From a virus, in the IMG/VR virus record IMGVR_UViG_3300024255_000045, positions 1 to 47,925 of that record: 47,925 bases of DNA. One strand, given 5' to 3'. The notes beneath the pieces are model-generated. The model saw only the letters and a list, made by a program, of their open reading frames with translations. It was not told where the DNA came from and did no database searches. Position 1 is the first letter of the stretch, and the number at the start of each line of letters is the position of its first letter. The position numbers and the translations under genes are program-made. Positions 8,001-47,832 of the stretch are shown here, in pieces.

Positions 8001-11000
8001 TTCTATTGTAGGAACAGTAACAGACGATAATATTATTGTTCTTAAAAATGTTATTGGAACATTCAACAACACAGGAACTTTCTCTGCAGATATTAAAACT
8101 TTTATTCTTACTATTGATCAAGATAGCAATTACACAAAAGGTGCCACATTAAGTTTAACTGATGGTGTTAATCCCCCTATTGCGACAGCAGAAATTTTAG
8201 AAGGAACAAGTAGACAAAATACTATAAAAATTAAAGTATTAACTGGCACTTGGATAGTTGATGAAGATTATTTTCTGCAGTCTAGCAATTTATTTAATAC
8301 CTCTGGATCTAAGATTGTAACTTTAGTATCTCTCAGTGATAACTTAGAACCATTTGAAGTTAATCAAAGTGTTGGTTTAATTGAGACAAGTGAGAATCAC
8401 GGTTTAGCAATTGGCGATCAAGTCAATATTAGTATTTTTCCTGATGACGCAACCAAGACAAAAAATTACTTTTTGAGAAAAAGACTATATCAAAAAATTA
8501 TTTTAAATGCACCAGAAAATAAATCAAATATAGATTATGATGGCGTTGGCAGATTCACTATATTAAATGGTGGTGCTGATTATACGGAAGATTCATATAC
8601 AGGAATTCCTCTTACTGGAGGTTCTGGAACTGGTGCTACAGCATCAATTACTGTTTCTAGTGCAGGTGCTGTTAGTAGTATTCAAATTGAAACCGGTGGC
8701 ACTGGATACAAAAGAGGCGATTATTTGGGAGTTGATGATGATCAACTTGCAAGATCTGGAGGATCTCTAAGTTCTTCTAGACTCGCTGTATATGTTGATC
8801 ATGCAGGTGTCTCATTATCTTCTAGTAGTATTCCATTAAAAACTGCAAATGGATTTGCAGTTGGTGATTACTTATCGGTTGGTTCTGAAGTTGTACAAAT
8901 TGTAGCAATTAATGGAAATATCCTTTCCGTTTCTAGAGCACAAGACAATACAACTGCTGTAGACCATTACGATAATGCAGAAGTATCTTTATATAAAGCA
9001 AATTACAACTTTACGGCAGATTATCAAATTAATAGTGGTATTGGTACTGGATATGTCAAATCATATGATGCTTCAACACAAGAAGCAATAATTGTATTTG
9101 GATACTCGATTGAAAAAAGAGTAGCGCAAGAGTTAACAATTAGTACAACATTCTTTGATGCAAGTTCCCCAGAGAGACTAGTTACAATTAGTTCTGTTAG
9201 TGATGTAGAGTATAAGTTTGAATTTTCTGAAGATAATGTATCGTTTACACCAAATCCAAATATTAACATACAAGAGTTTTACAAGTACGTATTCGATACT
9301 TCACATTCTTCATTGACAGGAACATATTTTGACCTAAGTCCAAGTAAGAGTTTCAATTTAATTACACAAGAAAAAACTACCTCTGTTATTTTGCCAGGAA
9401 ATACTGGATCATATACAGAAGTTAAATTTGGATTTGGTTCTAGATTAGCACAGAATAATTACACTATCAAAAAAGGAACTAGATTCCTTAATTTTTACTA
9501 CTTTGATAAAAACGAAATTGTTAATTCTGATGAAGCATTTTTAAAAATTGTTAATGACCCACTTCAGGGATCAAAAACACTGAATTATGTAACACCAAAT
9601 AGATTTGTTTATGATGTTCCTTCTGTGCCATTGTGGGATGGATCTGGAACTATCAATTATACAACATCTGGTCAGTTTGCTATTGGAGAAATTGATGATG
9701 TTAAAATTATCAATCTAGGAGAAAATTATAAAAAAATTCCATTAGTTGTTGGTGTAGAACCAACTTTAAATTACCGAGGTTCTGCTACGGTATTATTTGA
9801 TGATGCAACCAAAACAATTCAATCGGTGAGAATTGATAATGTTGGTTCAAATTATGTAAATCCAAAAGTCATTGTTTTAGATGCAGATGGTTCTGGCGCT
9901 ATTTTTGATGTTGTACAACAAAGTGGAAGACTGTTTTCTATTACGGTTGCGAACCCTGGAAAAGGTTATACCTATCCTCCAGTAATTCAAATTATTGAAA
10001 GTGATGTTGAATTATATGGCGAAAGTAATAGTATTGGCACTCCACAGAGTGTGAGAATTATTGATAACGGAGGAGCATATCATTTAGATAAAACAGTTTC
10101 ATCTAATGTAACTTCCCAGTATACAGTATCTTTAATTAATTTTAGTGGGGAATTTAAGAATGGTGAATATGTTACTCAGACAATAAATGGTGTTGAAGTA
10201 CTTCGTGCAAAAATTTCCGAATATAGAAGTGGATCTAATTTAATTAAATTGTCGGAAATTAGAGGAATTATACGAGAAAATATTTCTTTAGTTGGAGTTG
10301 TTTCAAATTCATCTGGAACTGTCAAAGGTATTTTTGTATCGTCATTCAAAACTAACATCTCAAGTTTCTTTGATAACCTTGGATACTACACTTCAGATAA
10401 AGGAAAACTTGGAGTAGCAAACCAAAAATTAACTGATAGTTTCTTCTATCAGGACTATTCTTATGTTGTTAAATCAAAAACACCTATAGAACAGTGGAGA
10501 GATTTAATCAAATCTACTACACACCCAGCAGGATTCAAGTTATTTGGTCAAGTTGATATAGAATCAACTGCTAATACTGTAATGCCTATTGCTACGGATA
10601 AAGCAGATAGTTTTAGTATTATTCAATTATGGGATCCCGAAAAGAATCAAATTACAGTACAAAGCACCAAGCAAGTAACTACACAAACAATTCAGAAAGT
10701 TGAGAATACTAGAATCCGTAAAGGACAAGGTTCTGCTGCTACGTCAGAGTTTAACTTTAATGAAACTCGTGCATTTGAATTTACTCTTGCTTCGCCATTT
10801 GATGGATATTTTGATACAGATGGAAGATTGCAGGGATCTACAGTCTTCCAAGTCTTAGATAACTTTGGAGTCGCATTCAGTCCAATTAACGAAGAAAGTA
10901 TTGTTGTTACTTTAGACGGTATTATCCAAGAACCAGGAGTAGCATATACAGTATCTGGTGATACAATTATATTCTCTGCTCCTCCACTTGGTGATGGTGC

Positions 11001-14000
11001 AAAACTAACCGGAAACAATTCTTCAAATACCACGCCTTACAGTGGTATGAAGTTTGTTGGTAGAAGTTTTTACTTTAAGGACAGTCAGTATAATACAAAA
11101 CATCTGAGGAAACTCAGAAATGTTTATCAAAGAAATGGTAGATGGATTGATGCAGCAAATCAAATTGAGAGAAATAAACAGTTTATCATAGAAGAATCTG
11201 TTGGATATGGTAAAGAGTATTATGTATCTCTAGATTGGAGTACAAAATTAGATGACTACCAAACTGATATTGGATATATCCTAGACTCTTATAGTCATGA
11301 TTTAAGATTTGGTGGTAATACTAAAGTTGTTGATTATGCTAATATTTTTGCTTCTGGATCTGCATATATTACTGATAATAAAACAGAATCTCTTAATATT
11401 TTTAAATATGCAACTAACTTAGCAAAACTTGCTATTAGAAATTGGGATTTTGTTGAAGAAAATGTTCAGTACATTCAAGGGTCTAAAGTTGTCTCAGTTG
11501 CAAATACAGACAATCTCGCAATTGGAATGCATATTAGTTCCGGAAGAGCATTTGATTCTGATACTAGAGTTGTATCTATTGATAGTCAATCACAGATTAC
11601 ATTATCAAAAGCAGCATTAGTTAACTCTGGTGTTGGTGCTGGTGGAGCATCTGCAGGAACCACACCTTTAGATGGGTCTACAGGTGGCAATGATCTTGGA
11701 TTAACCACAAGTATAGGTGCTGTAGAACCAGGAGATCAGTTTGCTGTAAATCCTGGAGACACTTTAAGTGTTCCTTTATCATTCTCTGGTGTAGATAGCG
11801 CAACTTTCTATCTAAGTGGTATCAATAATGGAACTTTTTATGACGCAGCAAATTTAATTGCTGGCAATAAATTATATCTTCAGGAAGAAGTTAGTGAATA
11901 CGTTTATGCAAATTATGCTCTTCAATCTAGCGATAAAGCAAAATGCTATCGTGATCTTGGATTTTTAATTGATAATATTGTATATCACTTAAAATTTGGT
12001 GGTAATGAAAGGGTGGTTAATTTTGCTCAACTTTATTATACTAATAGAGGATATCCTTATGGTGAAGAGTTAACATATATCAACAGATCTTCCACAGAAA
12101 CCGCAGCTGCTATTGCTGCATGGGATCAATTGGCGATTCTGATGAATTCTGCAATGAGAAATACTCTTGGTGCTGGAACATATACTAGTATTACACCTTT
12201 TGTAGATGCAACTGTTGCTGCAGATACTCAGTTCCCGTATTGCCAAGAAGTTGAATCATCGATCAATACATTCGTTAGTATCGTAAAAGATATTATTGCT
12301 AATGGATCTGGTGTTGTAGAGTCTATCAAGCAGAATGAAAATAAATCTGGATATTGGTCCGTGACTCCAACATATTCAAATTACAATATTATTGGAGACC
12401 CACTGTTAACTGCCAAAGAATGCAATGATGTTATATCGTCTGTAAATTCTTTATATGGAAATTTAGATGATGTATTAAATTCTACTCTTGTAGATAAAAC
12501 ACTTCCTGATTATGTTGATGGTGAAACAAAAGAATTTGAAATGTACTGGGACGATGGGTCCGCAGTATCCACAGAAAAAGATGAAAATCTTTTAATTACA
12601 ATTAATGCTGTTTTACAAGAAACCAAGTATAATGCAAATTATCCTGGCGATGACTCTTATTACATTGATAAAACTGTTGTTCCAAATAAGTTAGTATTTG
12701 ATGTAGCACCAATTTGGGATCAATATGAAGGTGCTAAAACCCTTGGAGAACCTACAGCAGTAGAAAAAATTATCGGTATTGGTATTGGTAATTATAAAAG
12801 ACTCACTATTGATTCCAATTTAATTGATAATATAAGGAGTGGTCCTTTCTTAATTTTAGATTTGGAAGATCTTACGGTTTTAAATATCGAAGAACCTGAT
12901 TATCTTCTAGTATTTGTCGATGGAGTATTACAGAAAGAAGGTATTTCTTATACTGTATCTGGACCAAATATTTTCTTTGAATTTTCTGTTACAGAACAAA
13001 TGAAAGTTGACATGCGATATCTTTATGGTAGAGATGTCGGTCAAATTCTAAATCTATATGATTACAATGTAGATCAATATTATGCAAACTCTGTAGTAGT
13101 ATTAGAAACTACAAGTGGTCTTCCTGCTTTTGAATTAAGAGCATGGATGGGCAATCAAGGCGGATCTCCTATTCAAGCGTTCCAAATTAAACCAGACGGT
13201 ACTTATAATATTATTGGTCAGATTGTTTCTCCACGTAGTAATGGATCTACACTAACATTTGAATGTTTTGGATACAAAGCAGAATTGATTGAAAATATTC
13301 CAATGACATTTGCTGTTAAGGGAAGATATACGTTAAACACTGATGTTTCATTTACAATTGCTGGAAGTAGCATAACGTATGAAAAAAATGAAGATAACAA
13401 TCTTTTACTAAGGGGTGTTGATCAGAACTGGCGTGGAACTTATTGGAGAAAAACTTTCAAAAATCCATTTGTTAGTCTTTCTAACGGATCTTCAATTCGA
13501 GTAGAAGGAGAATCAAATTTTAGAAAGATTAAGGAACTTCCATCTGTTCTAACAAGTAAGGAGCAAAGACCACAAGAACAAGTTTCAGATTCTTTCTATG
13601 GTCAAGTTAATATCGGACCATATAGTGGTATCACTAGAGGCGAAGGTCTTAGTATTGTTGCTAAAATTGAAAATGGTATTGTTGTAGATTTGGATTGGAA
13701 TCAACGTAGTTATGCTCCCATTACACAACCGACCGCATATCAATACTATACACCACCTGTAATTAACTTCTTATCAGAAGATGGCAATGGTGGTGGTGCA
13801 AGAGCACAAGTAATTGTCAGTAAAGGTCAGGTTATTAGTGTAGAACTAATCGCAGGCGGATCTGGATATACTAAGACACCAAAAGTTATTGTCGCTAGAA
13901 GATATGATGTAATAGAAGATAGTGATATTGGTGTCTCTTTAATTGATGTCAAATTAAACTTAAAGCAGTCTTTAGGATTAAATGTAATTTCTACTGTATC

Positions 14001-15516
14001 TGTTGTTGGTAATCAAGCAATTGATGTAACATCTATTACGTCAACATTAATTGATAGTCCTATTAATATTGACAGAGTTATTACTGCTGAAATATATCCT
14101 GCTGCACTAGAAGTTAGTACAGAATTGAGTGGAGGATTGGATGAGATTTTAACTCAGCAACACAGAGAAGAGCAAGTAGCACCTATTGATACGTTCTATG
14201 GTGGAACACAAATTAATATTAGAATTAACAACAAAATTGTTGATATTGAATCTTCTTCTACATTCACCACATCTGCAACTAGGGAGATTACAAGTAAGTT
14301 TACAACTGTTGTTGAGAATAATTATCTCTCTAATGTTAACTACTTTGCTACAGGATCTTTCCTACAAGCACCTCTATCTCCAACAGATACTATTATCTAC
14401 GTTGCTGATACAAGCAAGTTTGATTCCAATGGATACTTGCTAATTGGAGGAGAAATTGTTCGTTATCTACGCAAGTTAAATGATCGTTTCTTAATGGTCG
14501 AACGTGGTGTTGACAATACAAATGCACAGTCTTGGAGTCCTGGCACATTTATCAGACAAGTTCCTGATCCAGTATCTGTCGCTTCTGCTGCTGTTGCTAT
14601 TGTCGAATCTCAGTCTCAACTTATTACAATTAATGCCGCTTCTGGAATTACTAGTGCCGGACAATCACAGAGACAGATAATCACACCACTTGCTGATGTT
14701 AAGACCACCACGAAGCAAATTATTGCGGAAATCCAACCACAACTTAATGTTGAATCTGTTTCTAGTGTTAATACTTTTGTAGTTTATAGATTAGAACCAA
14801 CGTTTAATATTGTATCTTCTTTTACAACTACTTCAGATGTAGAGGTTGTTAACACATTACAATCGGTTCAAACTCAACTTGATATTCAAAAAGCAGCAAC
14901 TGAGATACTTCTAACCCCACCTCCTAGTGGTGTAGTTGACGGATATCAAGAGAGTGTTTTTATTAATGACCCTGTTGAAACTAGATTGAATGGATTTATA
15001 GATTTGCTTGATGACTACGGAGTCGTCAAGAGAAATGGCACTATAATTTTTGTTAGAAACTCTGTCTTTAATATCACCGCAGATTACATTGGAAATTACG
15101 AAAAAACAAATGTCGGTCATGTAATCGGACATTTTAACGGTATATTTGATGATGGTGCTGCAAATGTTTCTGGTATTTCCCTTCATGAAATATCAACATA
15201 TTTCCCCGCATTATCATTGGAAGACTTTGAAAAGAGAAACAAATCTAGTTATACTTTAGTGGGAGATAAATTCAATTTGATGCCGCCATCAATTCAAAAC
15301 CCAGTTGCTATCAGTTCTTCTTCAGGAACTATTGGTGGAAGTATTGTTGTACAAGATACTACATACTTCCCAAGTGAAGGATACTTATTTACTAGTGGTG
15401 GAACTGTAATTCAATACACTGGAAAGTCATCAATCGAATTTACTGGTTGTACTCTCTATAGTGGACCAAATTCCATTAACGCTACAGAAGAATTGATTCC
15501 GTTTACAATTTCATAA
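5026..15516 (+). CDS. giant baseplate wedge protein at the gp7 position, with YHYH domain
   Basis: 3496 residues in the slot between gp6 and gp8 where T4 has gp7 (1032 aa). The N terminus (KRISTLIESQLPEFITTEYE) is typical of marine T4-like phage wedge proteins. Domains by residue: N-terminal helical docking region 1-60; RG-type beta modules about 80-125, 320-378, 1268-1322, 3121-3178 and 3440-3480; GxGY-type beta repeats about 546-640, 1175-1240, 1556-1690 and 2909-2960; a YHYH-like domain about 756-860 (FAYDGNPIYGPFGH); 'DGxxQ' beta motifs near 1962, 2525 and 2629; two alpha-helical modules at 2042-2140 and 2273-2379. Its TAA lies inside a late-promoter motif. The wedge role is inferred from order; the added domains are probably surface-exposed. 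Confidence 0.85.
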   Translation: MAAVKTKRISTLIESQLPEFITTEYELFSKFVRKYYEQQEVQGGTLDIINNIQKYADIDYYEKNLLTQNNTLASSISSTDNTITLSDAQSFPAKNGYVRINDEIIFYETRTDTQLQNCSRGVSGNTTLGDLYDSSDFVSTDASAHQSGTTVYNVSNLFLYALVKNFESQYLGSFPEKYLKGDIDKRTLIKNIKKFYKSKGTTSSIKFVFNTIIAKEVENKPEVYNPKDFTYKSSESDWISVYALKVKVVSGNPKDLIGKKITQALTNEYPYADATVDNVYPDGTKDNEVIWNIVLAPETVNGTFNVSTKTRLEKTFLDSIGVGERIDVFSTLGWESTGSILIDQEVIEFDDKNVTQFIIKKRGDTPVNHTQGTPVYRPVTIEGSNVKLLTLGVVYNAIPSDKQPYSFTGDKLQISNPGFETSDPRIVQTGTNQPRWILGTGASVSASTNTPTQNALEGVSTDVSAIFADDQYYYITSSSYPSYNIFDGSTVSETMLDQKLLRIIRKVPTTSTEIYKTPRRDVGILLNGVPVYGYKDDESVRFGKLEQIRINTRGRNYINPPFVLVDGLPNKARAFLTGNVVDSIVVDTTDTFLNTPTIEITSGRDAKATAVVTGGEVTSIVIDNPGKYYSSPPNIVIRDKVGRGRFAEYTSIVDTDGKITELNKIFGGTLYTQENIEVEIVAVGEDATATPLLREWIKNRFEKIKNELDTQFGYSFANYNNVLEYGYGQIANPKSLRIALSDNLNNADTEPATKTHSPIIGFAYDGNPIYGPFGHSDPLDSQSSIARMTSSYSIRLDRQNGPALRDYALGSFVDDYKYNHKSGSLDENNGRFCITPDFPEGTYAYFLTIDTNQVPQFPYVLGDKYYSLPVSSNYNSNINQNDVPKNSKRFYRPGMQGNGEGLIAQIDAITSGTVDKIAIDRSSSNFSINSKLFFNNFGTEGKDIEALVSSVKGENVSYLQSKEDKVVKLTTIQNAYLFVDDVLRQPASGASGSIVGTVTDDNIIVLKNVIGTFNNTGTFSADIKTFILTIDQDSNYTKGATLSLTDGVNPPIATAEILEGTSRQNTIKIKVLTGTWIVDEDYFLQSSNLFNTSGSKIVTLVSLSDNLEPFEVNQSVGLIETSENHGLAIGDQVNISIFPDDATKTKNYFLRKRLYQKIILNAPENKSNIDYDGVGRFTILNGGADYTEDSYTGIPLTGGSGTGATASITVSSAGAVSSIQIETGGTGYKRGDYLGVDDDQLARSGGSLSSSRLAVYVDHAGVSLSSSSIPLKTANGFAVGDYLSVGSEVVQIVAINGNILSVSRAQDNTTAVDHYDNAEVSLYKANYNFTADYQINSGIGTGYVKSYDASTQEAIIVFGYSIEKRVAQELTISTTFFDASSPERLVTISSVSDVEYKFEFSEDNVSFTPNPNINIQEFYKYVFDTSHSSLTGTYFDLSPSKSFNLITQEKTTSVILPGNTGSYTEVKFGFGSRLAQNNYTIKKGTRFLNFYYFDKNEIVNSDEAFLKIVNDPLQGSKTLNYVTPNRFVYDVPSVPLWDGSGTINYTTSGQFAIGEIDDVKIINLGENYKKIPLVVGVEPTLNYRGSATVLFDDATKTIQSVRIDNVGSNYVNPKVIVLDADGSGAIFDVVQQSGRLFSITVANPGKGYTYPPVIQIIESDVELYGESNSIGTPQSVRIIDNGGAYHLDKTVSSNVTSQYTVSLINFSGEFKNGEYVTQTINGVEVLRAKISEYRSGSNLIKLSEIRGIIRENISLVGVVSNSSGTVKGIFVSSFKTNISSFFDNLGYYTSDKGKLGVANQKLTDSFFYQDYSYVVKSKTPIEQWRDLIKSTTHPAGFKLFGQVDIESTANTVMPIATDKADSFSIIQLWDPEKNQITVQSTKQVTTQTIQKVENTRIRKGQGSAATSEFNFNETRAFEFTLASPFDGYFDTDGRLQGSTVFQVLDNFGVAFSPINEESIVVTLDGIIQEPGVAYTVSGDTIIFSAPPLGDGAKLTGNNSSNTTPYSGMKFVGRSFYFKDSQYNTKHLRKLRNVYQRNGRWIDAANQIERNKQFIIEESVGYGKEYYVSLDWSTKLDDYQTDIGYILDSYSHDLRFGGNTKVVDYANIFASGSAYITDNKTESLNIFKYATNLAKLAIRNWDFVEENVQYIQGSKVVSVANTDNLAIGMHISSGRAFDSDTRVVSIDSQSQITLSKAALVNSGVGAGGASAGTTPLDGSTGGNDLGLTTSIGAVEPGDQFAVNPGDTLSVPLSFSGVDSATFYLSGINNGTFYDAANLIAGNKLYLQEEVSEYVYANYALQSSDKAKCYRDLGFLIDNIVYHLKFGGNERVVNFAQLYYTNRGYPYGEELTYINRSSTETAAAIAAWDQLAILMNSAMRNTLGAGTYTSITPFVDATVAADTQFPYCQEVESSINTFVSIVKDIIANGSGVVESIKQNENKSGYWSVTPTYSNYNIIGDPLLTAKECNDVISSVNSLYGNLDDVLNSTLVDKTLPDYVDGETKEFEMYWDDGSAVSTEKDENLLITINAVLQETKYNANYPGDDSYYIDKTVVPNKLVFDVAPIWDQYEGAKTLGEPTAVEKIIGIGIGNYKRLTIDSNLIDNIRSGPFLILDLEDLTVLNIEEPDYLLVFVDGVLQKEGISYTVSGPNIFFEFSVTEQMKVDMRYLYGRDVGQILNLYDYNVDQYYANSVVVLETTSGLPAFELRAWMGNQGGSPIQAFQIKPDGTYNIIGQIVSPRSNGSTLTFECFGYKAELIENIPMTFAVKGRYTLNTDVSFTIAGSSITYEKNEDNNLLLRGVDQNWRGTYWRKTFKNPFVSLSNGSSIRVEGESNFRKIKELPSVLTSKEQRPQEQVSDSFYGQVNIGPYSGITRGEGLSIVAKIENGIVVDLDWNQRSYAPITQPTAYQYYTPPVINFLSEDGNGGGARAQVIVSKGQVISVELIAGGSGYTKTPKVIVARRYDVIEDSDIGVSLIDVKLNLKQSLGLNVISTVSVVGNQAIDVTSITSTLIDSPINIDRVITAEIYPAALEVSTELSGGLDEILTQQHREEQVAPIDTFYGGTQINIRINNKIVDIESSSTFTTSATREITSKFTTVVENNYLSNVNYFATGSFLQAPLSPTDTIIYVADTSKFDSNGYLLIGGEIVRYLRKLNDRFLMVERGVDNTNAQSWSPGTFIRQVPDPVSVASAAVAIVESQSQLITINAASGITSAGQSQRQIITPLADVKTTTKQIIAEIQPQLNVESVSSVNTFVVYRLEPTFNIVSSFTTTSDVEVVNTLQSVQTQLDIQKAATEILLTPPPSGVVDGYQESVFINDPVETRLNGFIDLLDDYGVVKRNGTIIFVRNSVFNITADYIGNYEKTNVGHVIGHFNGIFDDGAANVSGISLHEISTYFPALSLEDFEKRNKSSYTLVGDKFNLMPPSIQNPVAISSSSGTIGGSIVVQDTTYFPSEGYLFTSGGTVIQYTGKSSIEFTGCTLYSGPNSINATEELIPFTIS
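11149..11446 (+). repeat. alpha-helical 'RNW' module, copy 1
   Basis: Protein-level repeat at residues 2042-2140 of the gp7-position protein. It begins DAANQIERNKQFI and contains YILDSYSHDLRFGGN, ending LAKLAIRNW. It shares the pattern DAA.LI..N...I ... D...I......DL.FGGN ... A..NW with three other copies in the window. Confidence 0.75.
11842..12162 (+). repeat. alpha-helical 'RNW' module, copy 2
   Basis: Residues 2273-2379 of the gp7-position protein: DAANLIAGNKLYLQEEVSEY, then KCYRDLGFLIDNIVYHLKFG and a variant end AMRNTLGAG. It lies about 130 residues after copy 1, with a Ser/Gly/Thr-rich linker between. Confidence 0.75.
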
Positions 15517-39764: not shown

Positions 39765-40427
39765 ATGGCAACATTTTTTGGAATAAAACCACTACCAGCA
39801 GGATTAGTTCTTGGTATAGATTTTGCAAATCCAGCATCTTATTCTGGTTCTGGATCTACGATTTATGACTTAAGTGGAAAAGGCAATAATGCTTCTATTG
39901 TAGGAACGTTATCGTATTCAACAGATTTTGGTGGTATTTTAATTACTCCTGGAACCAGCGGTAATTATGTTGGATCATTTGGACCAGATCTTTCATCCAC
40001 AAGTAATACAGTTATTGTTGGATCTAGGTATGCTCCAGGAGCAACTCAGGGTGGTAGAGTTCTTTCATCTGGTGTTAACAACTGGTTGCTAGGACATCAT
40101 GGTAGTAATACAACTAATTGTGGAGATTATTATGCCGAGGGTTGGGTAAACAACCCCGCTTCTGGAGGTGGAGGTACTGATTGGCATATCTACACAGCAA
40201 CTGGAAATATAGACACTGATAGTTGGGGTGTATATAAAGACAATTCTTTGATTGCAGAAAATGGTAGTGGAAGCGCAGGTCCCAATAAATTTGAATTAGG
40301 TAGATGGAGAACCAATTCCGAATATAGCAATGCACAAATTTCATTTGTTTTAGCATGGGATCGTGTTCTTTCTGCTGATGAAAGAACACAAGTGTTTAAT
40401 ATGTACAGTGATCGTTTCACGGTATAA
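39765..40427 (+). CDS. single-domain LamG/concanavalin-like lectin protein, 220 aa
   Basis: After a short N terminus (MATFFGIKPLPAG) the chain is one jelly-roll-like domain: GLVLGIDFANPASYSGSGST, YDLSGKGNNASIVGTL, a middle of alternating strands, and the LamG_3-like end FELGRWRTNSEYSNAQISFV followed by AWDRVLSADERTQVFNMYS. This family usually binds glycans or proteins. It stands alone, without a fibre shaft, between two fibre genes. The ATG follows GAGGACGA with usable spacing. Its stop lies inside the TATAAATA promoter of the next gene. It is likely a virion adhesin or decoration; the ligand is unknown. Confidence 0.85.
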   Translation: MATFFGIKPLPAGLVLGIDFANPASYSGSGSTIYDLSGKGNNASIVGTLSYSTDFGGILITPGTSGNYVGSFGPDLSSTSNTVIVGSRYAPGATQGGRVLSSGVNNWLLGHHGSNTTNCGDYYAEGWVNNPASGGGGTDWHIYTATGNIDTDSWGVYKDNSLIAENGSGSAGPNKFELGRWRTNSEYSNAQISFVLAWDRVLSADERTQVFNMYSDRFTV

Positions 40428-40430
40428 ATA
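40423..40430 (+). promoter_or_regulatory. T4-type late promoter for the 651-aa fibre gene
   Basis: TATAAATA is an exact late-core match overlapping the final Val and TAA codons of the LamG gene. The next ATG is 23 bases downstream at 40454. Confidence 0.7.
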
Positions 40431-40453: not shown

Positions 40454-42409
40454 ATGGCGAATTCTGATAAGGATATCCTTATAACGCCTAATAAAGGCTC
40501 AACGAATATACCAGAAATTAGTTTTGTCGGTCAAGATAATGCACCGATTAAACTTCGCGTACTTGATGATAACACGCTGTCTTTTGAAGGAAACTCAGGG
40601 CAACTATTTTCTGTTGATGATAATTTACTTTCTGGAACTATATTTGCTGTTTCAAATATTAGTGGAGTACCATCGATTAATGTTGATGCTTCTGGAAGAG
40701 TTGATATTGCTAGGTATGGAGGTCAGTTACAAGTAGGTTGGAACAATAATGTTACAGATAGAGCACTATGTGTTACTGGTGAGATAGCACTAACAACTAC
40801 AAATTCAACACCAGCTGGTTTGTGTTTCTGGGAAAGTGGAGATAATACTGGTACAGCTCCAGCACAGATTTATTGGGATGGACCTGGATATGCTGATGGC
40901 AATAACTATCTTTCTCTTAGAACAAACAATACGGATAGATTAACAGTAACATATGATAGTGCTATTGGTATTAATACTAATAGACCTAAAGTTAAGTTAC
41001 ATTTATTTGGTGATCATACCACCACTCAATTTAGAATGACATTACCATCCTCCGCAAATGGTGGTGGAACTGGTGATATTAATATGCAAATGTGGGTATC
41101 TGAAGGAAATGCGACCTGGGATGCTGGCGGTATTGGTATGAACGTCAGTAATTATAATACTGAAACTTACCCAACAAATGTACCAGATAGTGATGGTGGA
41201 TGGTTCCCTAGATTAAATACTGGAATTGGTCAAGCATATCTAAGATTCTTCCCTAACGGTGGTGCTATCCGTTTCTCGACAAGAGACAATGATGGAACTG
41301 AGTATAGAAATAAAATTAGTATGATTAAAGGCGGTATTGGAATCAATACCGAAACGGGTGTCGGAAGCACTTACAAGTTAGTTGTTGGTGGTGATATTAA
41401 TTTTACTGGTGATTTATATCAAAACGGATCTGTGTTTAAAACTCTACCAGATCAAAGTAATACAGGAACTAGAGGTGCTGTTTTAAGATCAGATGGAGAA
41501 TCTGCTTATTGGGATAATGATTCTATGGAAAGATATTCTGGTGGATATGTACTTAGAGGTTATACTCTAGCAGGATATAAAAGTTCCACATCATGGAAAA
41601 ATGTTAATAGAACTGACCATGCTAGTGATACCACGTATGATTTAGGAGATCAAATTTCTACATCAGATGCTTATACAGCAGGATCATCAAATGGTACATA
41701 TGCTTATGTGTTCCACTCTGGAGATAACTGGAACGTTAACGGTAATGCAATTAACCGTTTTAATATGCTAACAGATACTAATGCTAATATTAGTACAACT
41801 ATGGCAAATAGCATGAATAGAACTTCTGTTATGAGAAGCAAGTTCTTATATGCTTACACTTTTGGTAATGGAGAACCAAATAAATTTGACCACCAAACAG
41901 AAACAGCATCATTAACTGGATGGGCAAATGGTGATGGCGGTGGTAGTTTACATGGAGGAAATCCAGCATGTGGTTATGGAGAATTAAGAGGATGGCATAA
42001 TGTTAGTAATGTAGGATCTTGGGTAGATTTTGCTACAGAATCTAGAAATTCTTGGGGTAGTACAGGAACAGATGGAACTAACAAAACCATAAGTACTTAT
42101 ACTGGATTCATGTATTGGAATACTGGTGGAGGTTATAGAACAACTAATGCTATGTCAAAACGTTATGATTACAGCGGAAGTCAGGTAACTACCATCGGGA
42201 AATTTAATGGTGCTACTAGTGGCGAAGAATCTTATCACACAGGTGAATTAAAAGGATACATGGTCGGAATGTATGATGGAGGACAAAACAATACTGGAGC
42301 AATTATGGATTATCAGACTAATAGTTATTACACAAAATCTAGTGTAAATAGTAAGGGACCAGCTGGCAGAGCATCTGGCGCTGGTGTAGAATACGGAAGA
42401 GGTCAGTAA
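40454..42409 (+). CDS. tail fibre protein, 651 aa
   Basis: The N-terminal module DKDILITPNKGSTNIPEISF with DNTLSFEGNSGQLFSV is a unit I know from many marine phage tail fibres. The centre has shaft-like strands (GIGINTETGVGSTYKLVVGG). From about residue 350 the sequence becomes Gly/Asn/Tyr/Trp-rich (GYVLRGYTLAGYKSSTSWKN, ACGYGELRGWHNVSNVGSWV), which resembles a receptor-binding tip with repeated strands. No enzyme motif is visible. It has its own late promoter and is followed after 3 bases by a helical protein that may be its assembly factor. Adhesin function is inferred. Confidence 0.85.
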   Translation: MANSDKDILITPNKGSTNIPEISFVGQDNAPIKLRVLDDNTLSFEGNSGQLFSVDDNLLSGTIFAVSNISGVPSINVDASGRVDIARYGGQLQVGWNNNVTDRALCVTGEIALTTTNSTPAGLCFWESGDNTGTAPAQIYWDGPGYADGNNYLSLRTNNTDRLTVTYDSAIGINTNRPKVKLHLFGDHTTTQFRMTLPSSANGGGTGDINMQMWVSEGNATWDAGGIGMNVSNYNTETYPTNVPDSDGGWFPRLNTGIGQAYLRFFPNGGAIRFSTRDNDGTEYRNKISMIKGGIGINTETGVGSTYKLVVGGDINFTGDLYQNGSVFKTLPDQSNTGTRGAVLRSDGESAYWDNDSMERYSGGYVLRGYTLAGYKSSTSWKNVNRTDHASDTTYDLGDQISTSDAYTAGSSNGTYAYVFHSGDNWNVNGNAINRFNMLTDTNANISTTMANSMNRTSVMRSKFLYAYTFGNGEPNKFDHQTETASLTGWANGDGGGSLHGGNPACGYGELRGWHNVSNVGSWVDFATESRNSWGSTGTDGTNKTISTYTGFMYWNTGGGYRTTNAMSKRYDYSGSQVTTIGKFNGATSGEESYHTGELKGYMVGMYDGGQNNTGAIMDYQTNSYYTKSSVNSKGPAGRASGAGVEYGRGQ

Positions 42410-42412
42410 TCC

Positions 42413-43150
42413 ATGGAAAAATTATATTTCTTAGTCAAAGAAAAAAACTCTATAGATATTCCCACGACAAGATCATTCTTTTCATTTAGTGGATGGAATG
42501 TGATATCTATTGATAAAACATTCTATACTATGTTTTTAGGTTTAGACTATAAATTTATTGAATTATCCAGAAAAGACATTCTTGGATATAAATTATTTGG
42601 AGAATGTAGAACTGTTACTAAAGTAGCAATGGGGGATGAAGAAGAGGATATCCCTTATAATAACTACGAGGCAAAAATTAAAATAGAAATATCTGAAAAT
42701 CGTTTGAATTTAATTATTCGTTCTATGAAACAGTTTGCTGCTATTTTATTAGAAGAAGAATTTGACAAACGCCTTGAAAAATTAAATCTATCTTTTTCTT
42801 CCTTAGAAAAAACAACATGGAAAACTCAGTATGAGCAAGCATCTGTTGGAAATGGAGAACTGATATCTGCTTTAGCAAAAGCAAAGCAAACTACCATAGA
42901 AAATTTATCCGGTAGAATTCTGGAATCAAAAGTTAATTATGATAAGCAATGTCAGGATTTGTATGTTGAATTATCCGAACTAAAGGAAAAATTCAAATCT
43001 AAAAATTCCGTAGTTGAACTTAATTTGATGTACTCTAAATACTTTGGTATGACATGTTCTTATGATAAAGAATATTGTGATGCTAACCCAGATATCTTTG
43101 ATTCTCAAGGGTCTGTAATCGGTCAAAAACCACAAGGACATTATTTTTAA
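42413..43150 (+). CDS. hypothetical post-fibre protein, 245 aa (possible fibre chaperone)
   Basis: Starts 3 bases after the fibre stop. Residues about 1-100 are a compact mixed region (KLYFLVKEKNSIDIPTTRSF, FIELSRKDILGYKLFGECR). Residues about 100-205 are long charged helices (FDKRLEKLNLSFSSLEKTTW, ELISALAKAKQTTIENLSGR), ending in a Cys-containing tail (GMTCSYDKEYCDANPDIF). The helical half has the look of phage fibre-assembly proteins, which end in a Trp-containing helical segment and commonly follow the fibre gene. That comparison is loose; no family motif is decisive. No SD sequence is clear at this junction. Confidence 0.7.
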   Translation: MEKLYFLVKEKNSIDIPTTRSFFSFSGWNVISIDKTFYTMFLGLDYKFIELSRKDILGYKLFGECRTVTKVAMGDEEEDIPYNNYEAKIKIEISENRLNLIIRSMKQFAAILLEEEFDKRLEKLNLSFSSLEKTTWKTQYEQASVGNGELISALAKAKQTTIENLSGRILESKVNYDKQCQDLYVELSELKEKFKSKNSVVELNLMYSKYFGMTCSYDKEYCDANPDIFDSQGSVIGQKPQGHYF

Positions 43151-43167
43151 TAAAACTGTTTATTATT

Positions 43168-43908
43168 ATGACAATAGAAAGATCTGATTTGATTAATTAC
43201 GCCAACCGTTTTAGTCGTTCCATGGACGACTACCAAATGGAACACTTTGTCGTAAAATCACAAGTCACTAGATTTAGACAACTACAACAAGCTTTGCTTG
43301 AGTTTCGTAGCAGGTTAGAATCTCTTGATGCTTATCATGTAGAAAGAGAAAGAATGGTAATTCAGAAGTTAAAGTGGGAACGAAAACTTCTAGAAGAAAC
43401 GGATGATTTAGAACTTAGATTAATTAATTTAGAAATTAATGAACTAACAAAAAACATTGCTGTTACTGATAAAAGAATTAGGCACGTTGAAAGAGAAAGA
43501 GAATTTTTTGAAAATCAACTTCTAAAAGATTTTGATACAGTTGAAGAACTAGAAAACTATATCGAAGATCCAGAAAACGAAAGACTGTATTGGATTTCAA
43601 GAATGGCAAAACAAGCTGCCATGGAAATGGCTTCTCAGGGTAGAATTGGAATTGGCAATTTAGATTCTATTGCTCAGATGGAAGAAGAGGATCAAATTAA
43701 AACTCTACAAATTGCAATCCAATATTCAGGACTATTGAATGTTGGTATGGAAAAATTAAAGCAAGAAGTAATTCCAGCACTACAACGATTAGAACAGTCT
43801 GATGTTACTTTCTTCCCATCTTTTGATGGTATTGAAAAAGATCTAGAATTGAAAATTATAGGAGACCTTGGTAATGAGCAAAGAAAAAGTATTCAGTCTG
43901 CCAATTAA
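43168..43908 (+). CDS. hypothetical coiled-coil protein, 246 aa
   Basis: Residues about 30-140 form an extended charged coiled coil (RFRQLQQALLEFRSRLESLD, YHVERERMVIQKLKWERKLL, LTKNIAVTDKRIRHVERERE). A less charged C-terminal domain follows (LYWISRMAKQAAMEMASQGR, ALQRLEQSDVTFFPSFDGIE). There is no membrane segment and no Cys. Its end overlaps the next gene by 35 bases, so it joins the fibre block to the enzyme cassette. The family is not recognised. It could be a virion or scaffold-like protein, or an adaptor for the enzymes that follow. Confidence 0.75.
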   Translation: MTIERSDLINYANRFSRSMDDYQMEHFVVKSQVTRFRQLQQALLEFRSRLESLDAYHVERERMVIQKLKWERKLLEETDDLELRLINLEINELTKNIAVTDKRIRHVEREREFFENQLLKDFDTVEELENYIEDPENERLYWISRMAKQAAMEMASQGRIGIGNLDSIAQMEEEDQIKTLQIAIQYSGLLNVGMEKLKQEVIPALQRLEQSDVTFFPSFDGIEKDLELKIIGDLGNEQRKSIQSAN

Positions 43909-45577
43909 TCCAAAGAGTGATGAAGAGTTTGTAAAAAATATTTTTATTCCTTTTTTACAGAAACATAAAAAATATATTGCTGACTTGTATTTTACATGTC
44001 GTATGCCCCCATTTACTCAAGATGCTATGGGTGATATTTTTGTGTCTGATCCCAGAGATTTAACGTATCAAGCATTTACTATATCAGAAAAAACTGGTAT
44101 TCCTTTATCAGCAACTTTTAATAATATTTACGTAAGACCATCACAAAAAAATTTAGATATTTTTATCGATTTTTTTAAACCCTTGTACTATAAAGGTATC
44201 AGAACTGTAACCTTACCTCATACTATGTGGGTTTCTTCTGGTCAAATACAGAAAGAATTTCCAGAGTTGTTTATTAAAAACACAATCCTCCGTGAAGTAA
44301 CAAGACCAAATGAAATTGTGTCTCTTGCCGAAGCAGGTTTTCATTATATCAACTTAGACAGAGATTTAATGAGAGATAGAGAATCTCTTGAGAGAATTGT
44401 TGAGGCAAAGGAATACTGTGCTTCTATTAAAAAACCCGTTAAGTTATCACTCTTGGCAAATGAAACTTGCTGGGGAGGATGTCCTATTATGGTGGAGCAT
44501 TATCATTTTAATAATACAAGAACACCTGATGATCCTCAATTTTTTAATGATCCTATTTCCAGAAACTCTTGTTCAAAGTGGGATGTTGAGGATCCTTCTT
44601 GGTCTTTAAAAGCAGCGAACCTTCCACCATGGAAAAAAGACTGGGAAGAGTTTTTAGATCTTGGTGTCGATGTATTCAAAATGCATGGACGAGAAGCAAT
44701 GAGTCGTCTTAAAGAAAGTATGGATATCATCGAAAAGTGGGCAAATGATGATGAGATTCTTTTCAGTGATTTTAATAATTTTGTAGATAATATTGACTCC
44801 AAAGAAAAACCATTTGAGATTTGGAGAGATAAAATTAAAAATTGTAAGTTTGATTGTTGGAAATGTAACTATTGTAATTCTGTTGTCGAGTCACATCTTA
44901 AGAAACAACATAGACTCATTCACCCATTAGTAGAAGTTGCTCTAGAATCATTTAACAAATCAGCAAACTTAGATTCTAATTTCAAGCATAGTAGATTTAA
45001 TATTGATGGGTTAAGCTCCAATAGAGTCAGACATATGCTTAATTATATTTGTTCTTTTAAAGATACAAAATATTTGGAGGTTGGTGTATACCATGGCAGT
45101 ACATTCTGTGCTGCCATCCAAAACAATAAAATAAAAGCATATGCTGTAGATACTTGGGAAGAGCAAAAATTACAACCGTTTGTTGATGGAAAACTTTCTT
45201 TCAAAACAAACTGTAGTGTTGATGTTTTTAAAAAAAATTTAAAAAATTATCTAGGATCCAATGAAGTAAAAATTATTAACAAGAAAGCAGAAATAATCGA
45301 TTCTTCTGATGTAGAAGATAAGGTTAATGTAATTTTTTATGATGGATCACACGAACTACAAGATCAAAAAAAAGTTTTAACAAACCTCTTAAAAGTAACT
45401 GATAGCATATTTTTATTGTTAGTTGATGATGCTAATTTTGAAGGAGTCATTGACGCATCAGAACAATTTGTTAAAGAAAATAATTTGACGGTATTGTTCG
45501 AGAGAAAGTTGCTGAATAATATAGAAGATGATACAATGTGGTGGAATGGTTTGCATATGTTGGTATTACAGAAATGA
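43874..45577 (+). CDS. U32-like Fe-S barrel protein fused to a class I methyltransferase
   Basis: I chose ATG 43874 (AGGAG about 9 bases upstream) over an in-frame TTG at 43868; the protein is 567 aa. Residues 1-300 resemble the U32 'peptidase' barrel: ILREVTRPNEIVSLAEAGF, then YINLDRDLM, and GVDVFKMHGREAMSRLKES, which parallels the U32 'KIEGR' segment. Cys42, Cys199-x3-Cys203 and Cys233 could be cluster ligands, as in UbiU/UbiV-type members. A second group, Cys324-x3-Cys328-x2-Cys331-x2-Cys334, follows. From about residue 370 there is a Methyltransf_24-like domain: YLEVGVYHGSTFCAA (glycine-rich SAM loop), AVDTWEE, VNVIFYDGSH. Its TGA overlaps the next ATG. The substrate is unknown. Confidence 0.75.
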   Translation: MSKEKVFSLPINPKSDEEFVKNIFIPFLQKHKKYIADLYFTCRMPPFTQDAMGDIFVSDPRDLTYQAFTISEKTGIPLSATFNNIYVRPSQKNLDIFIDFFKPLYYKGIRTVTLPHTMWVSSGQIQKEFPELFIKNTILREVTRPNEIVSLAEAGFHYINLDRDLMRDRESLERIVEAKEYCASIKKPVKLSLLANETCWGGCPIMVEHYHFNNTRTPDDPQFFNDPISRNSCSKWDVEDPSWSLKAANLPPWKKDWEEFLDLGVDVFKMHGREAMSRLKESMDIIEKWANDDEILFSDFNNFVDNIDSKEKPFEIWRDKIKNCKFDCWKCNYCNSVVESHLKKQHRLIHPLVEVALESFNKSANLDSNFKHSRFNIDGLSSNRVRHMLNYICSFKDTKYLEVGVYHGSTFCAAIQNNKIKAYAVDTWEEQKLQPFVDGKLSFKTNCSVDVFKKNLKNYLGSNEVKIINKKAEIIDSSDVEDKVNVIFYDGSHELQDQKKVLTNLLKVTDSIFLLLVDDANFEGVIDASEQFVKENNLTVLFERKLLNNIEDDTMWWNGLHMLVLQK

Positions 45578-46209
45578 ATATAATTGATGTTTTTCCAAGT
45601 CCAGTTTATGTGGAGTATTATCCAGAAAAAGAAGTTATTAAAAGTATCACAAAACAGATGCTAAGTGAAGGAGAAATTTCTCCAAATACTTATTGTAGTG
45701 ATTTATTTCATTTAGGAAACAACTCACAATCTTCTATTTTGTATGAAGATTTTTTTGATGGATTTAGAGAATGGATTATAAACAATGCCACATATTTTAT
45801 AGAAGATGTAATGGGATATCGAATAGACGACAGTCTTTTAATAACAGATAGTTGGATAAACATTTCCAAAAAAGGGGCGTATCAACATCCCCACTACCAT
45901 ACAAATTCTTTTGTATCTGGAACATATTATGTTTCTGTAGATGACGATGCGGCACCTTTAGAATTTAACTATTGTGATATAGCACCATACGCCCAAAAAC
46001 AAAATTTAATTCTAGAAAAATCTTTAGCAACGAAATACAATTCTGATGTAATAATGGACGTAAAAGAAGGTAATCTACTTTTATGGCCATCAAATCTAAC
46101 TCATGGATTTTCTAATAATAAGTCTGATGAGAGAATATCAATATCATTTAATATCATGCCAACTCAAATGAAGACAGGGGCATATGGATTTAAGGTATCT
46201 TTGTTATGA
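45574..46209 (+). CDS. 2OG-Fe(II) oxygenase, first copy
   Basis: I chose ATG 45574 (MNIIDVFPSPVYVEYYPEKE), which overlaps the previous TGA as ATGA; an upstream in-frame ATG at 45538 would lie inside the methyltransferase. 211 residues. The double-stranded beta-helix signature is present: HPHYHTNSFVSGTYYVS with His107-x-His109 as likely iron ligands, distal His177 (LTHGFSNN) and Arg187 for the 2-oxoglutarate carboxylate (ERISISFNIMP). The N terminus 'FPSPVY' and the 'SG.YYV' segment fit the 2OG-FeII_Oxy_5 type common in cyanomyoviruses. These enzymes hydroxylate or otherwise oxidise a substrate; the substrate here is unknown. Confidence 0.88.
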   Translation: MNIIDVFPSPVYVEYYPEKEVIKSITKQMLSEGEISPNTYCSDLFHLGNNSQSSILYEDFFDGFREWIINNATYFIEDVMGYRIDDSLLITDSWINISKKGAYQHPHYHTNSFVSGTYYVSVDDDAAPLEFNYCDIAPYAQKQNLILEKSLATKYNSDVIMDVKEGNLLLWPSNLTHGFSNNKSDERISISFNIMPTQMKTGAYGFKVSLL

Positions 46210-47000
46210 TTGATTATAATGAAATAAAAAAATTATTTCCAGACGACGTTTGGGATATGGGTGTTTTATCTGGAATCAATTATAGAAAAGTCATTAACAA
46301 ACCAGTAAAAGCTTTGTGCCATTTTAAAGGAGAATTGGTAACTAATAGAATACATTCACCAGAAACTATCGAGAATGCTATTATATTTGCTAGAGCATCA
46401 GATGTTGGTAGTAACTATTCTCTCTATCTAGAAGCAGAAGATTTGTTAAAACCATATATTGATTCTGGTGTATGTGAACAAATTTACACCAACTTTAAAG
46501 AAGCAGCGATCATGTCTGGTGTTGGAGTAAGAGCAAAAAACTCTTTAGTTTATAATGAAAAATTTGGATTTCAATGCAAATTGTGTGCTTTCACATTTTA
46601 CGATGAACTTGTTAATGTACCAGATAAAAAAATTAACCAAGGATTATTAGATCTATGCAATGGGTGTAATGATTGTATTGTCAACTGCCCTGCTAATGCT
46701 ATACATGAAGATTTTATTGATAGTAGGGCATGTGATGTTTTTGTCGGACTTGGAAATCACCCAACTATTTCTTCAGTCAAATGGTTCTGGTATGAAAAAA
46801 TGAATCCACCAATTCCAGAAGATGTAGTTGCTTCTTGGGACAACATGAAAGATTATGAAGAATACATAAAATGGTCTGGTAGATATGAAATGACTCCAAA
46901 TGGTTTGACTGAAGATAGAAAAGTCATTGATATTCCCCACTGTAGAGAATGTCAAAAACAACCCAGATGTAGTAAGAGACCTATTGATAATGAACAGTAA
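46206..47000 (+). CDS. QueG-like [4Fe-4S] ferredoxin-domain protein
   Basis: 264 residues, starting by ATGA overlap with the oxygenase. A classical cluster motif CNGCNDCIVNCP is at residues 151-162, giving Cys151-x2-Cys154-x2-Cys157-x3-Cys161. It is preceded by SGVGVRAKNSLVYNEKFG, which resembles the 'G..GKNS.L....G' segment of epoxyqueuosine reductase QueG, and followed by NAIHEDFIDSRAC, as in QueG. A C-terminal HCRECQKQPRC and an FQCKLC pair could complete a second cluster. QueG is cobalamin-dependent; I cannot confirm a cobalamin site, and the protein is shorter than typical QueG. It is likely an electron-transfer or reductase partner of the neighbouring iron enzymes. The stop overlaps the next gene by 11 bases. 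Confidence 0.72.
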   Translation: MIDYNEIKKLFPDDVWDMGVLSGINYRKVINKPVKALCHFKGELVTNRIHSPETIENAIIFARASDVGSNYSLYLEAEDLLKPYIDSGVCEQIYTNFKEAAIMSGVGVRAKNSLVYNEKFGFQCKLCAFTFYDELVNVPDKKINQGLLDLCNGCNDCIVNCPANAIHEDFIDSRACDVFVGLGNHPTISSVKWFWYEKMNPPIPEDVVASWDNMKDYEEYIKWSGRYEMTPNGLTEDRKVIDIPHCRECQKQPRCSKRPIDNEQ

Positions 47001-47607
47001 TGTTGAGTGGGAAGTCCTTCCTATTTTTTCCAAACCATTAGCAATTTCTAAAATTGATAATGATATTTCTAGATTATTACAAGCAGTATGTTCTAAAGTT
47101 GAATGGGAAGAAGATGCAGATGAAACTGGTTATCTTGGTGGGTGGTCTTCTGATAGAAATATTTTAGATTCTTATCCAGATATCAAAGCATATCTAGAAA
47201 ATTTTTCACTTTCTTGTTTAAAAGATCTCTATAGATACTTCGTAGATATAAAAATTACAACATCCTGGTTTACTAGATCTCTTCCAAACGGAAGAACTAA
47301 TGATCATTCTCATTGTAATTCTTGGTTTAGTTCTGTACTCTATTTTGACGAGTATGAGGAATCATCTAATAAATTAGTTTTAAACACAGATGCTCCTAGA
47401 ATTTTAATATCACAAAAAGAAGAAAATTTATTTAATGGTCATAGTTTGACTTTACCACCACAATCTGATATGATTGTTTTGTTTCCTAGTGAAGTACGTC
47501 ACTACACAACTACAAACAAATCTAATAAAACTAGGTATTCATTAGCGTTTAATATAATGCCCAAAGGATTTGTTGGAGAAGGAGACTCCAGTTACACATA
47601 TAAATAA
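46990..47607 (+). CDS. 2OG-Fe(II) oxygenase, second copy
   Basis: Start set at ATG 46990 (MNSNVEWEVLPIFSKPLAIS), which overlaps the preceding gene by 11 bases; the longer in-frame start at 46927 would add residues encoded inside that gene. 205 residues. Likely iron ligands are His106-x-His108 (NDHSHCNSWFSSVLYF) and His171 (EVRHYTTTN), with Arg182 in TRYSLAFNIMP for 2-oxoglutarate. The C-terminal 'FNIMP' ending is shared with the first oxygenase, but the rest is clearly diverged, so this is not a recent duplicate. The stop lies inside the following late promoter. The substrate is unknown; it may act in sequence with its neighbours. Confidence 0.85.
   Translation: MNSNVEWEVLPIFSKPLAISKIDNDISRLLQAVCSKVEWEEDADETGYLGGWSSDRNILDSYPDIKAYLENFSLSCLKDLYRYFVDIKITTSWFTRSLPNGRTNDHSHCNSWFSSVLYFDEYEESSNKLVLNTDAPRILISQKEENLFNGHSLTLPPQSDMIVLFPSEVRHYTTTNKSNKTRYSLAFNIMPKGFVGEGDSSYTYK
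47599..47606 (+). promoter_or_regulatory. T4-type late promoter for the 66-aa gene
   Basis: TATAAATA is an exact late-core match overlapping the final Tyr-Lys codons and TAA stop of the second oxygenase. The next ATG is at 47632, 25 bases downstream. Confidence 0.65.
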
Positions 47608-47631: not shown

Positions 47632-47832
47632 ATGGACACTGAACAACTTAAGAAAAATTTTGTCGATCAACTAGAGCAAGCAGATAAGCAAATTGCTGAG
47701 TTGGAAACAAACCTTGTAAAAGCAAGAGAGTACAAACTAAAATTACAGGGAGGTCTAGAGACTTTAGAACTCCTCAATCCATCGGAAGAAGGAGAACCAG
47801 CAGAAGCAGCACCCACAGAAGTAGCAGAATAA
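47632..47832 (+). CDS. small coiled-coil protein, 66 aa
   Basis: MDTEQLKKNFVDQLEQADKQ starts a single long helix with heptad-spaced Leu/Ile/Val (IAELETNLVKAREYKLKLQG), followed by an acidic Glu/Ala/Pro tail (NPSEEGEPAEAAPTEVAE). There is no membrane segment. Short proteins of this style are common in marine T4-like phages, but I know no function. It has its own late promoter and an intrinsic terminator directly after it, so it forms an independent one-gene unit between the enzyme cassette and the neck gene, which suggests separate dosage. Confidence 0.8.
   Translation: MDTEQLKKNFVDQLEQADKQIAELETNLVKAREYKLKLQGGLETLELLNPSEEGEPAEAAPTEVAE

Follow-up and report, generated by a model that had tools for sequence, protein, structure and literature searches.

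A viral DNA stretch of 47,925 bases (IMG/VR record IMGVR_UViG_3300024255_000045, the whole of which is called the window below) carries four overlapping genes, here named A to D, directly behind the fibre-region genes of a marine T4-like phage. We tentatively read the block as a late modification module that shares its presumed transcript with the fibre genes, with A and B as a core and C and D as an add-on. The product of gene C looks like a miniature B12 reductase related to reductive dehalogenases. As no catalogued phage was found to encode a protein of this type, the genes of the block probably modify the fibre, or else a different late product, through chemistry not yet described. An initial annotation made from the sequence had described the four genes as one cassette and one pathway; its observation is confirmed, and its interpretation is partly supported. 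In agreement with that annotation, we found no description of a phage system with these four genes.

The window carries baseplate and fibre genes of the T4-like kind (gp6 and gp8 families). The features that matter for the argument are the following:

40423..40430, + strand: late-promoter-like TATAAATA ahead of fibre gene 351, the upstream bound of the presumed transcript
40454..42409, + strand: fibre-region gene 351-like (T4-like GC 351; phrog_1417)
42413..43150, + strand: fibre-region gene 352-like (phrog_1604)
43168..43908, + strand: fibre-region gene 353-like (phrog_1409), overlapping A
43874..45577, + strand: gene A (phrog_1458; T4-like GC 354), 567 amino acids (aa), predicted barrel plus O-methyltransferase-like domain
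45574..46209, + strand: gene B, 2-oxoglutarate (2OG)-Fe(II) oxygenase of PF13759/TIGR02466, 211 aa
46206..47000, + strand: gene C, 264 aa, minimal relative of the cobalamin class III enzymes
46990..47607, + strand: gene D, second 2OG-Fe(II) oxygenase of PF13759, 205 aa
47599..47606, + strand: late-promoter-like TATAAATA ahead of the next gene, the downstream bound of the presumed transcript
47632..47832, + strand: conserved small gene (phrog_580) marking the end of the variable slot; the neck gene gp13 is next in relatives

The open reading frames (ORFs) and their overlaps are as first described: A and B share 4 bases (ATGA), B and C share 4 bases (ATGA), and C and D share 11. Likewise, a late-promoter-like TATAAATA stands at 47599, ahead of the next gene, and zero matches lie between 40423 and 47599, hence none within A-D. 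Since TATAAATA bounds this region only at 40423 and 47599, the motif-bounded unit runs from 351 through D and is not A-D alone, which bears out the placement of the cassette with the fibre genes. By analogy to the late promoters of T4-like phages, TATAAATA may be taken as a late promoter, and A-D then probably share a late transcript with genes 351-353. The more general motif WATAAATA has six matches in the window, all on the + strand (15524, 15530, 17391, 17442, 40423 and 47599) and all 5' of large or conserved ORFs. This count is below the shuffle mean of 15, and the scarcity and placement are as expected of late promoters under selection. Sigma-70-like matches in the window turned out to be no commoner than in shuffled sequence. 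All four genes are under purifying selection: in comparison with the relative L005, the ratio of nonsynonymous to synonymous substitution rates (dN/dS) is about 0.05 for A, 0.13 for B, 0.06 for C and 0.29 for D, with dS close to saturation.

Gene C is the most unusual member of the block. Its middle part matches the reductive dehalogenase profile TIGR02486 with an E value of 1e-9 (38.6 bits over 77 residues, under the cut-off of 160) and, partially, the QueG profile TIGR00276 with an E value of 4e-7 (29.4 bits, under the cut-off of 200). The C profile retrieves PceA-type dehalogenases and QueG from the PDB, and hhalign pairs C with Escherichia coli QueG at E 7e-9 over 74 columns. The AlphaFold model (predicted local distance difference test 79, predicted template modelling score 0.75) contains a predicted nitroreductase-like cobalamin domain and a predicted ferredoxin domain. 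At E<1e-3 it has 46 PDB matches, every one of them QueG, a PceA-type enzyme or NpRdhA, with MMACHC next. Eight cysteines (151, 154, 157, 161, 176, 246, 249 and 255) are invariant in 20/20 sequences and form a ferredoxin-type pattern, PF13484 being recognized in all 20; two [4Fe-4S] sites are thus predicted. The initial description of C as a QueG-like [4Fe-4S] protein stands, but it understates the case, since at a catalytic position C is dehalogenase-like and unlike QueG.

That position is Lys125, which is lysine in 18 of 20 sequences and histidine in the other two. HMMER aligns it with K488 of NpRdhA and R305 of PceA, the basic residue of the catalytic dyad, whereas E. coli QueG has neither Lys nor Arg there. 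In NpRdhA, Y426 and K488 have been implicated as a proton-donating dyad (PMC7565698). The candidate for the active-site tyrosine of class III enzymes (QueG Y101, PceA Y246, NpRdhA Y426) is Tyr71 of C, invariant in 18/18 sequences; it falls on the DYH motif of QueG only when the profile alignments are forced, and then with low confidence. N96, invariant in 19/19, may correspond to PceA N272 and QueG D130 (PMC4646009), a gap of about five residues making the match unsure. The protein stops at the second cluster motif and is missing the C-terminal helical repeat domain of QueG, which is proposed to bind tRNA (PMC4646009).

Class III B12 enzymes have been described as being of two kinds, the reductive dehalogenases and QueG (PMC7585037). 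C shares with both (RdhA being represented by PceA and NpRdhA) the predicted fold, the double-cluster cysteine pattern and possibly the catalytic Tyr, and with RdhA alone the basic residue. It differs from both in having only 264 aa, in scoring far under both curated cut-offs and in being phage-borne. The small size and the missing parts argue against filing it as either QueG or RdhA, and we prefer to describe C as a minimal class III relative carried by phages.

C has no tblastn match in 50,697 phage records or 72,556 plasmid records and is absent from INPHARED, a viral structure library gave no match below E 0.001, and no report of a C-like protein in phages was found in the open-access papers that were read. 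None of the phages covered by a survey of 7-deazaguanine genes had QueG (PMC6884629). When run on 151 genomes from a single bacterial phylum, the one to which the metagenome-assembled genome (MAG) holding contig L125 belongs, the C profile finds RdhA-sized and QueG-sized ORFs. The top relative of C among these genomes is a 232-aa bacterial protein (L308:1141-1839), which has GPRVR at the position of K125 as well as the double-cluster motif. An unnamed short cellular family of class III, of the L308 type, may exist.

The surroundings of C were compared in 20 representatives. In seven of them C lies behind A with a 2OG gene adjoining it; in five more (L012, L100, L119, L120 and L122, of which L120 and L122 are close relatives) a 2OG gene is at most three genes away in other surroundings. 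The records G069, G070 and G065 each contain only one PF13759 gene, and it adjoins C or is two genes off. The distance-based chance of such proximity is estimated at roughly 2% for G069, 5% for G065 and 11% for G063, and two C-bearing records are without any PF13759 gene. Elsewhere, C directly follows nrdB, encoding the ribonucleotide reductase small subunit (L010:6775-8771 and L014:1151-3144). A Mom-family gene of the DNA-modification type (L012:7390-8004; PF25680, E 1e-19) stands between a 2OG oxygenase gene and C, and a DruA-matching gene (L013:2340-3461; PF14236, E 1e-9) is immediately 5' of C. A small thioredoxin-like gene (L007:8794-9084; PF13098, E 5e-4, below the cut-off) overlaps the end of C, and its product is a possible redox partner of C.

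Gene A encodes two domains. Its C-terminal half matches Methyltransf_24 (PF13578) with an E value of 7e-7 and 30.5 bits, over the Pfam cut-off of 26.3, so the methyltransferase domain assigned at the outset holds. The S-adenosylmethionine (SAM) motif is present, and E402, G404, G408, D426, D490, D518 and D519 are invariant in 25 homologues; one DD pair in the domain is invariant, and a DxxH motif keeps its H in 24 of the 25. O-methyltransferases and RNA methyltransferases are the top PDB fold matches of this domain, MycF and NovP, which act on sugars, being among them. With MycF, NovP and Methyltransf_24 the A protein shares the SAM motif, the invariant acidic residues and the fold; it differs in being fused to a Cys-rich barrel and in sitting behind fibre genes.

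In the N-terminal domain, the structure prediction gives an alternating beta-alpha barrel. Seven cysteines (199, 203, 233, 324, 328, 331 and 334) are invariant in 56/56 non-redundant homologues, and the low-confidence stretches of the model are mostly at these residues, which we infer to form a metal or Fe-S site. The barrel had been called U32-like, and this label is not supported: PF01136 shows no match even at E 1, and the motif E-x7-C-x6-C is absent, A carrying E197-T-C199-WGG-C203. The Glu and the two Cys of this motif are essential in TrhP and RlhA (TrhP E162, C170 and C177; PMC6599085). By hhalign, the similarity of A to the U32 profile is weak (17% probability), in the expected register and above 29 of 30 column shuffles; the remaining shuffle had an outlying score of 142.6, perhaps through a parsing fault, and was counted against the real score. 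None of the 50 PDB fold matches listed for A is a U32 entry. Cellular relatives of A were likewise discarded, since its sole matches in the cellular genome collection are two contigs (L125 and L126) binned in Dehalococcoidia and Euryarchaeota MAGs, which are probably misbinned phage contigs.

Genes B and D turned out to be ordinary members of the PF13759/TIGR02466 family (phrog_81), for which no member with an assigned substrate was found. As proposed at the start, both are over the PF13759 cut-off of 27 bits, B with 77.5 bits (E 1e-21) and D with 60.0 bits (E 3e-16); D scores under the TIGR02466 cut-off. The HxH...H...R residues are present in both, and oxygenase activity with Fe(II) is predicted. 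B is related by sequence to PDB entries 2RG4 and 3BVC. In the tree, B belongs to a branch that follows A, and D belongs to another branch whose members also occur behind gp46 and elsewhere; being on different branches, the two genes are not the product of a recent duplication. A mobile C-D pair, suggested by a first tree in which D-type genes occurred only beside C, was abandoned when a wider search found relatives of D without C and the new tree broke the clade.

The setting of A is widely conserved. By tblastn, A is present in 123 catalogued cyanophage records, and about 300 to 400 IMG/VR stretches match it. The cultured cyanophage P-HM2 has genes 351-352-353 upstream of A; in the cultured cyanophage ACG-2014j, A is followed by other genes and then by a phrog_580 gene and gp13. 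From such gene order we infer a cyanobacterial host. Among 76 representatives of A at 90% identity, a sample biased by the queries, a 353-like gene is at most three genes upstream in 67, some of the remaining ones being incomplete. For 72 representatives with at least three downstream genes, a 2OG oxygenase is within five genes downstream of A in 54, a PF04820 halogenase within five genes in 37, and C within three genes in 7; C and the halogenase together were seen behind A in 0/72, a count confounded by phylogeny.

Co-occurrence of the four genes, had it been rare, would have spoken against the cassette. The order A-B-C-D is intact in several lineages: the window, L005/L019 (80% identity in A and 83% in C), L031/L033/L106/L107 and L103-L105/L108-L110. 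L101 and L102 have A-B-C without D. The cassette is more than chance, because homologues with about 80% and about 60% identity keep the genes, their order and their tight overlaps. The slot behind A varies in content: some phages have a single 2OG gene there and some have none, and others have 2OG-halogenase-2OG, a series of different 2OG genes or B-C-D. Since A is common without C or D and A-B-C-D is yet kept in several lineages, the cassette consists of a core linked to the fibre genes (A, in many cases with B) and a C-D add-on, and is not one indivisible unit. The idea of a single four-step pathway is not supported as stated, A being mostly without C or D and C occurring in several contexts without A. 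In L144, from a related T4-like clade, the slot holds a 2OG gene, a flavin halogenase and another 2OG gene, which suggests that the chemistries found in the slot are interchangeable and share one kind of target.

The halogenase of L144 (L144:7254-8816, between 2OG genes behind A) belongs to the flavin-dependent tryptophan halogenases (PF04820, E 2e-85), and a comparable gene of about 500 aa is found in most of L143-L196. In L064 (7628-11011) six genes in a row follow A, four matching 2OG-oxygenase profiles and the others similar-looking, and this run suggests serial recruitment into the fibre slot. Apart from the slot, a YHYH domain (PF14240, E 1e-15) lies inside a 3,496-aa baseplate-region ORF of the window (5026-15516).

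In the proposed module, B and D would hydroxylate a target and the O-methyltransferase-like domain of A would cap the hydroxyl. C, loaded with host (pseudo)cobalamin and fed by host ferredoxin, would reductively cleave the same or a neighbouring group. According to one study, more than 95% of cyanobacteria can make only pseudo-B12 (PMC5816740). The likeliest target would be a protein of the fibre or associated with it, or the glycan of such a protein. Several points weigh against this reading. The fibre target is deduced only from the position of the genes. The template modelling scores of the C model are moderate (0.4-0.5 by query length), and cobalamin binding, which has no sequence motif (PMC4646009), is for C a prediction only. 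A and C also occur apart, several phages carry C far from fibre genes, and, taken together, the evidence that C associates with 2OG genes beyond the cassette is no more than suggestive.

The alternative that survives best, although we consider it rather unlikely, is that there is no shared pathway. The stretch from A to phrog_580 would then be a hotspot for unrelated accessory genes, 2OG genes above all, with C and D as passengers held by translational coupling only. The variable slot contents fit this, as does the fact that C and the branch of D are each found without the other, and PF13759 genes are common in these phages. However, the A-B-C-D order and the short overlaps are kept across lineages whose A and C proteins share about 60% identity, and C adjoins a 2OG gene in other contexts too.

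RNA modification appears less probable still. Here A would resemble a fused RNA hydroxylase, as TrhP, and TrmR, making a methoxylated uridine, and C would act on a tRNA base as QueG does. Hydroxylation and O-methylation of U34 by TrhP and TrmR are an established pair (PMC6599085), and the plan of A, a barrel with conserved Cys plus an O-methyltransferase, is analogous to it; QueG is among the nearest relatives of C, and RNA methyltransferases are among the fold matches of A. Against this, A, unlike TrhP, fails the U32 profile and motif tests, C is without the helical repeat domain and has Lys at the dehalogenase position, and an RNA enzyme would not be expected to stay constantly linked to fibre genes. 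Halogen chemistry, with C as a true reductive dehalogenase removing halogen from a fibre residue or small molecule, is the least credible: the RdhA-type basic residue, the conserved Tyr, the reductive dehalogenase profile outscoring that of QueG, and the cyanophage PF04820 tryptophan halogenases in the equivalent slot of the related clade, which are not homologous to C and whose counterpart C would be, speak for it, but C has roughly half the length of RdhA, falls far under the family cut-off, and 0/12 C-bearing records (one of 193 kb) have a PF04820 halogenase, which also ruled against halogenase and C as a halogenation-dehalogenation pair in one phage.

The late modification module linked to the fibre genes is therefore the reading that we retain. 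A bolder extension, which we regard as doubtful, is that C founds a third, viral branch of class III, in which a minimal B12 reductase with a dehalogenase-type Tyr-Lys site works with 2OG oxygenases to give an undescribed tail-fibre decoration. If C is indeed a minimal phage member of class III, it would offer a compact model of these enzymes and link phage production to the B12 supply of the host. Hundreds of T4-like phages show the conserved link between the fibre genes and an enzyme slot holding A, 2OG oxygenases, and a halogenase or B12-type reductase, and this turns chemical modification of the adhesins by these phages into a testable claim.

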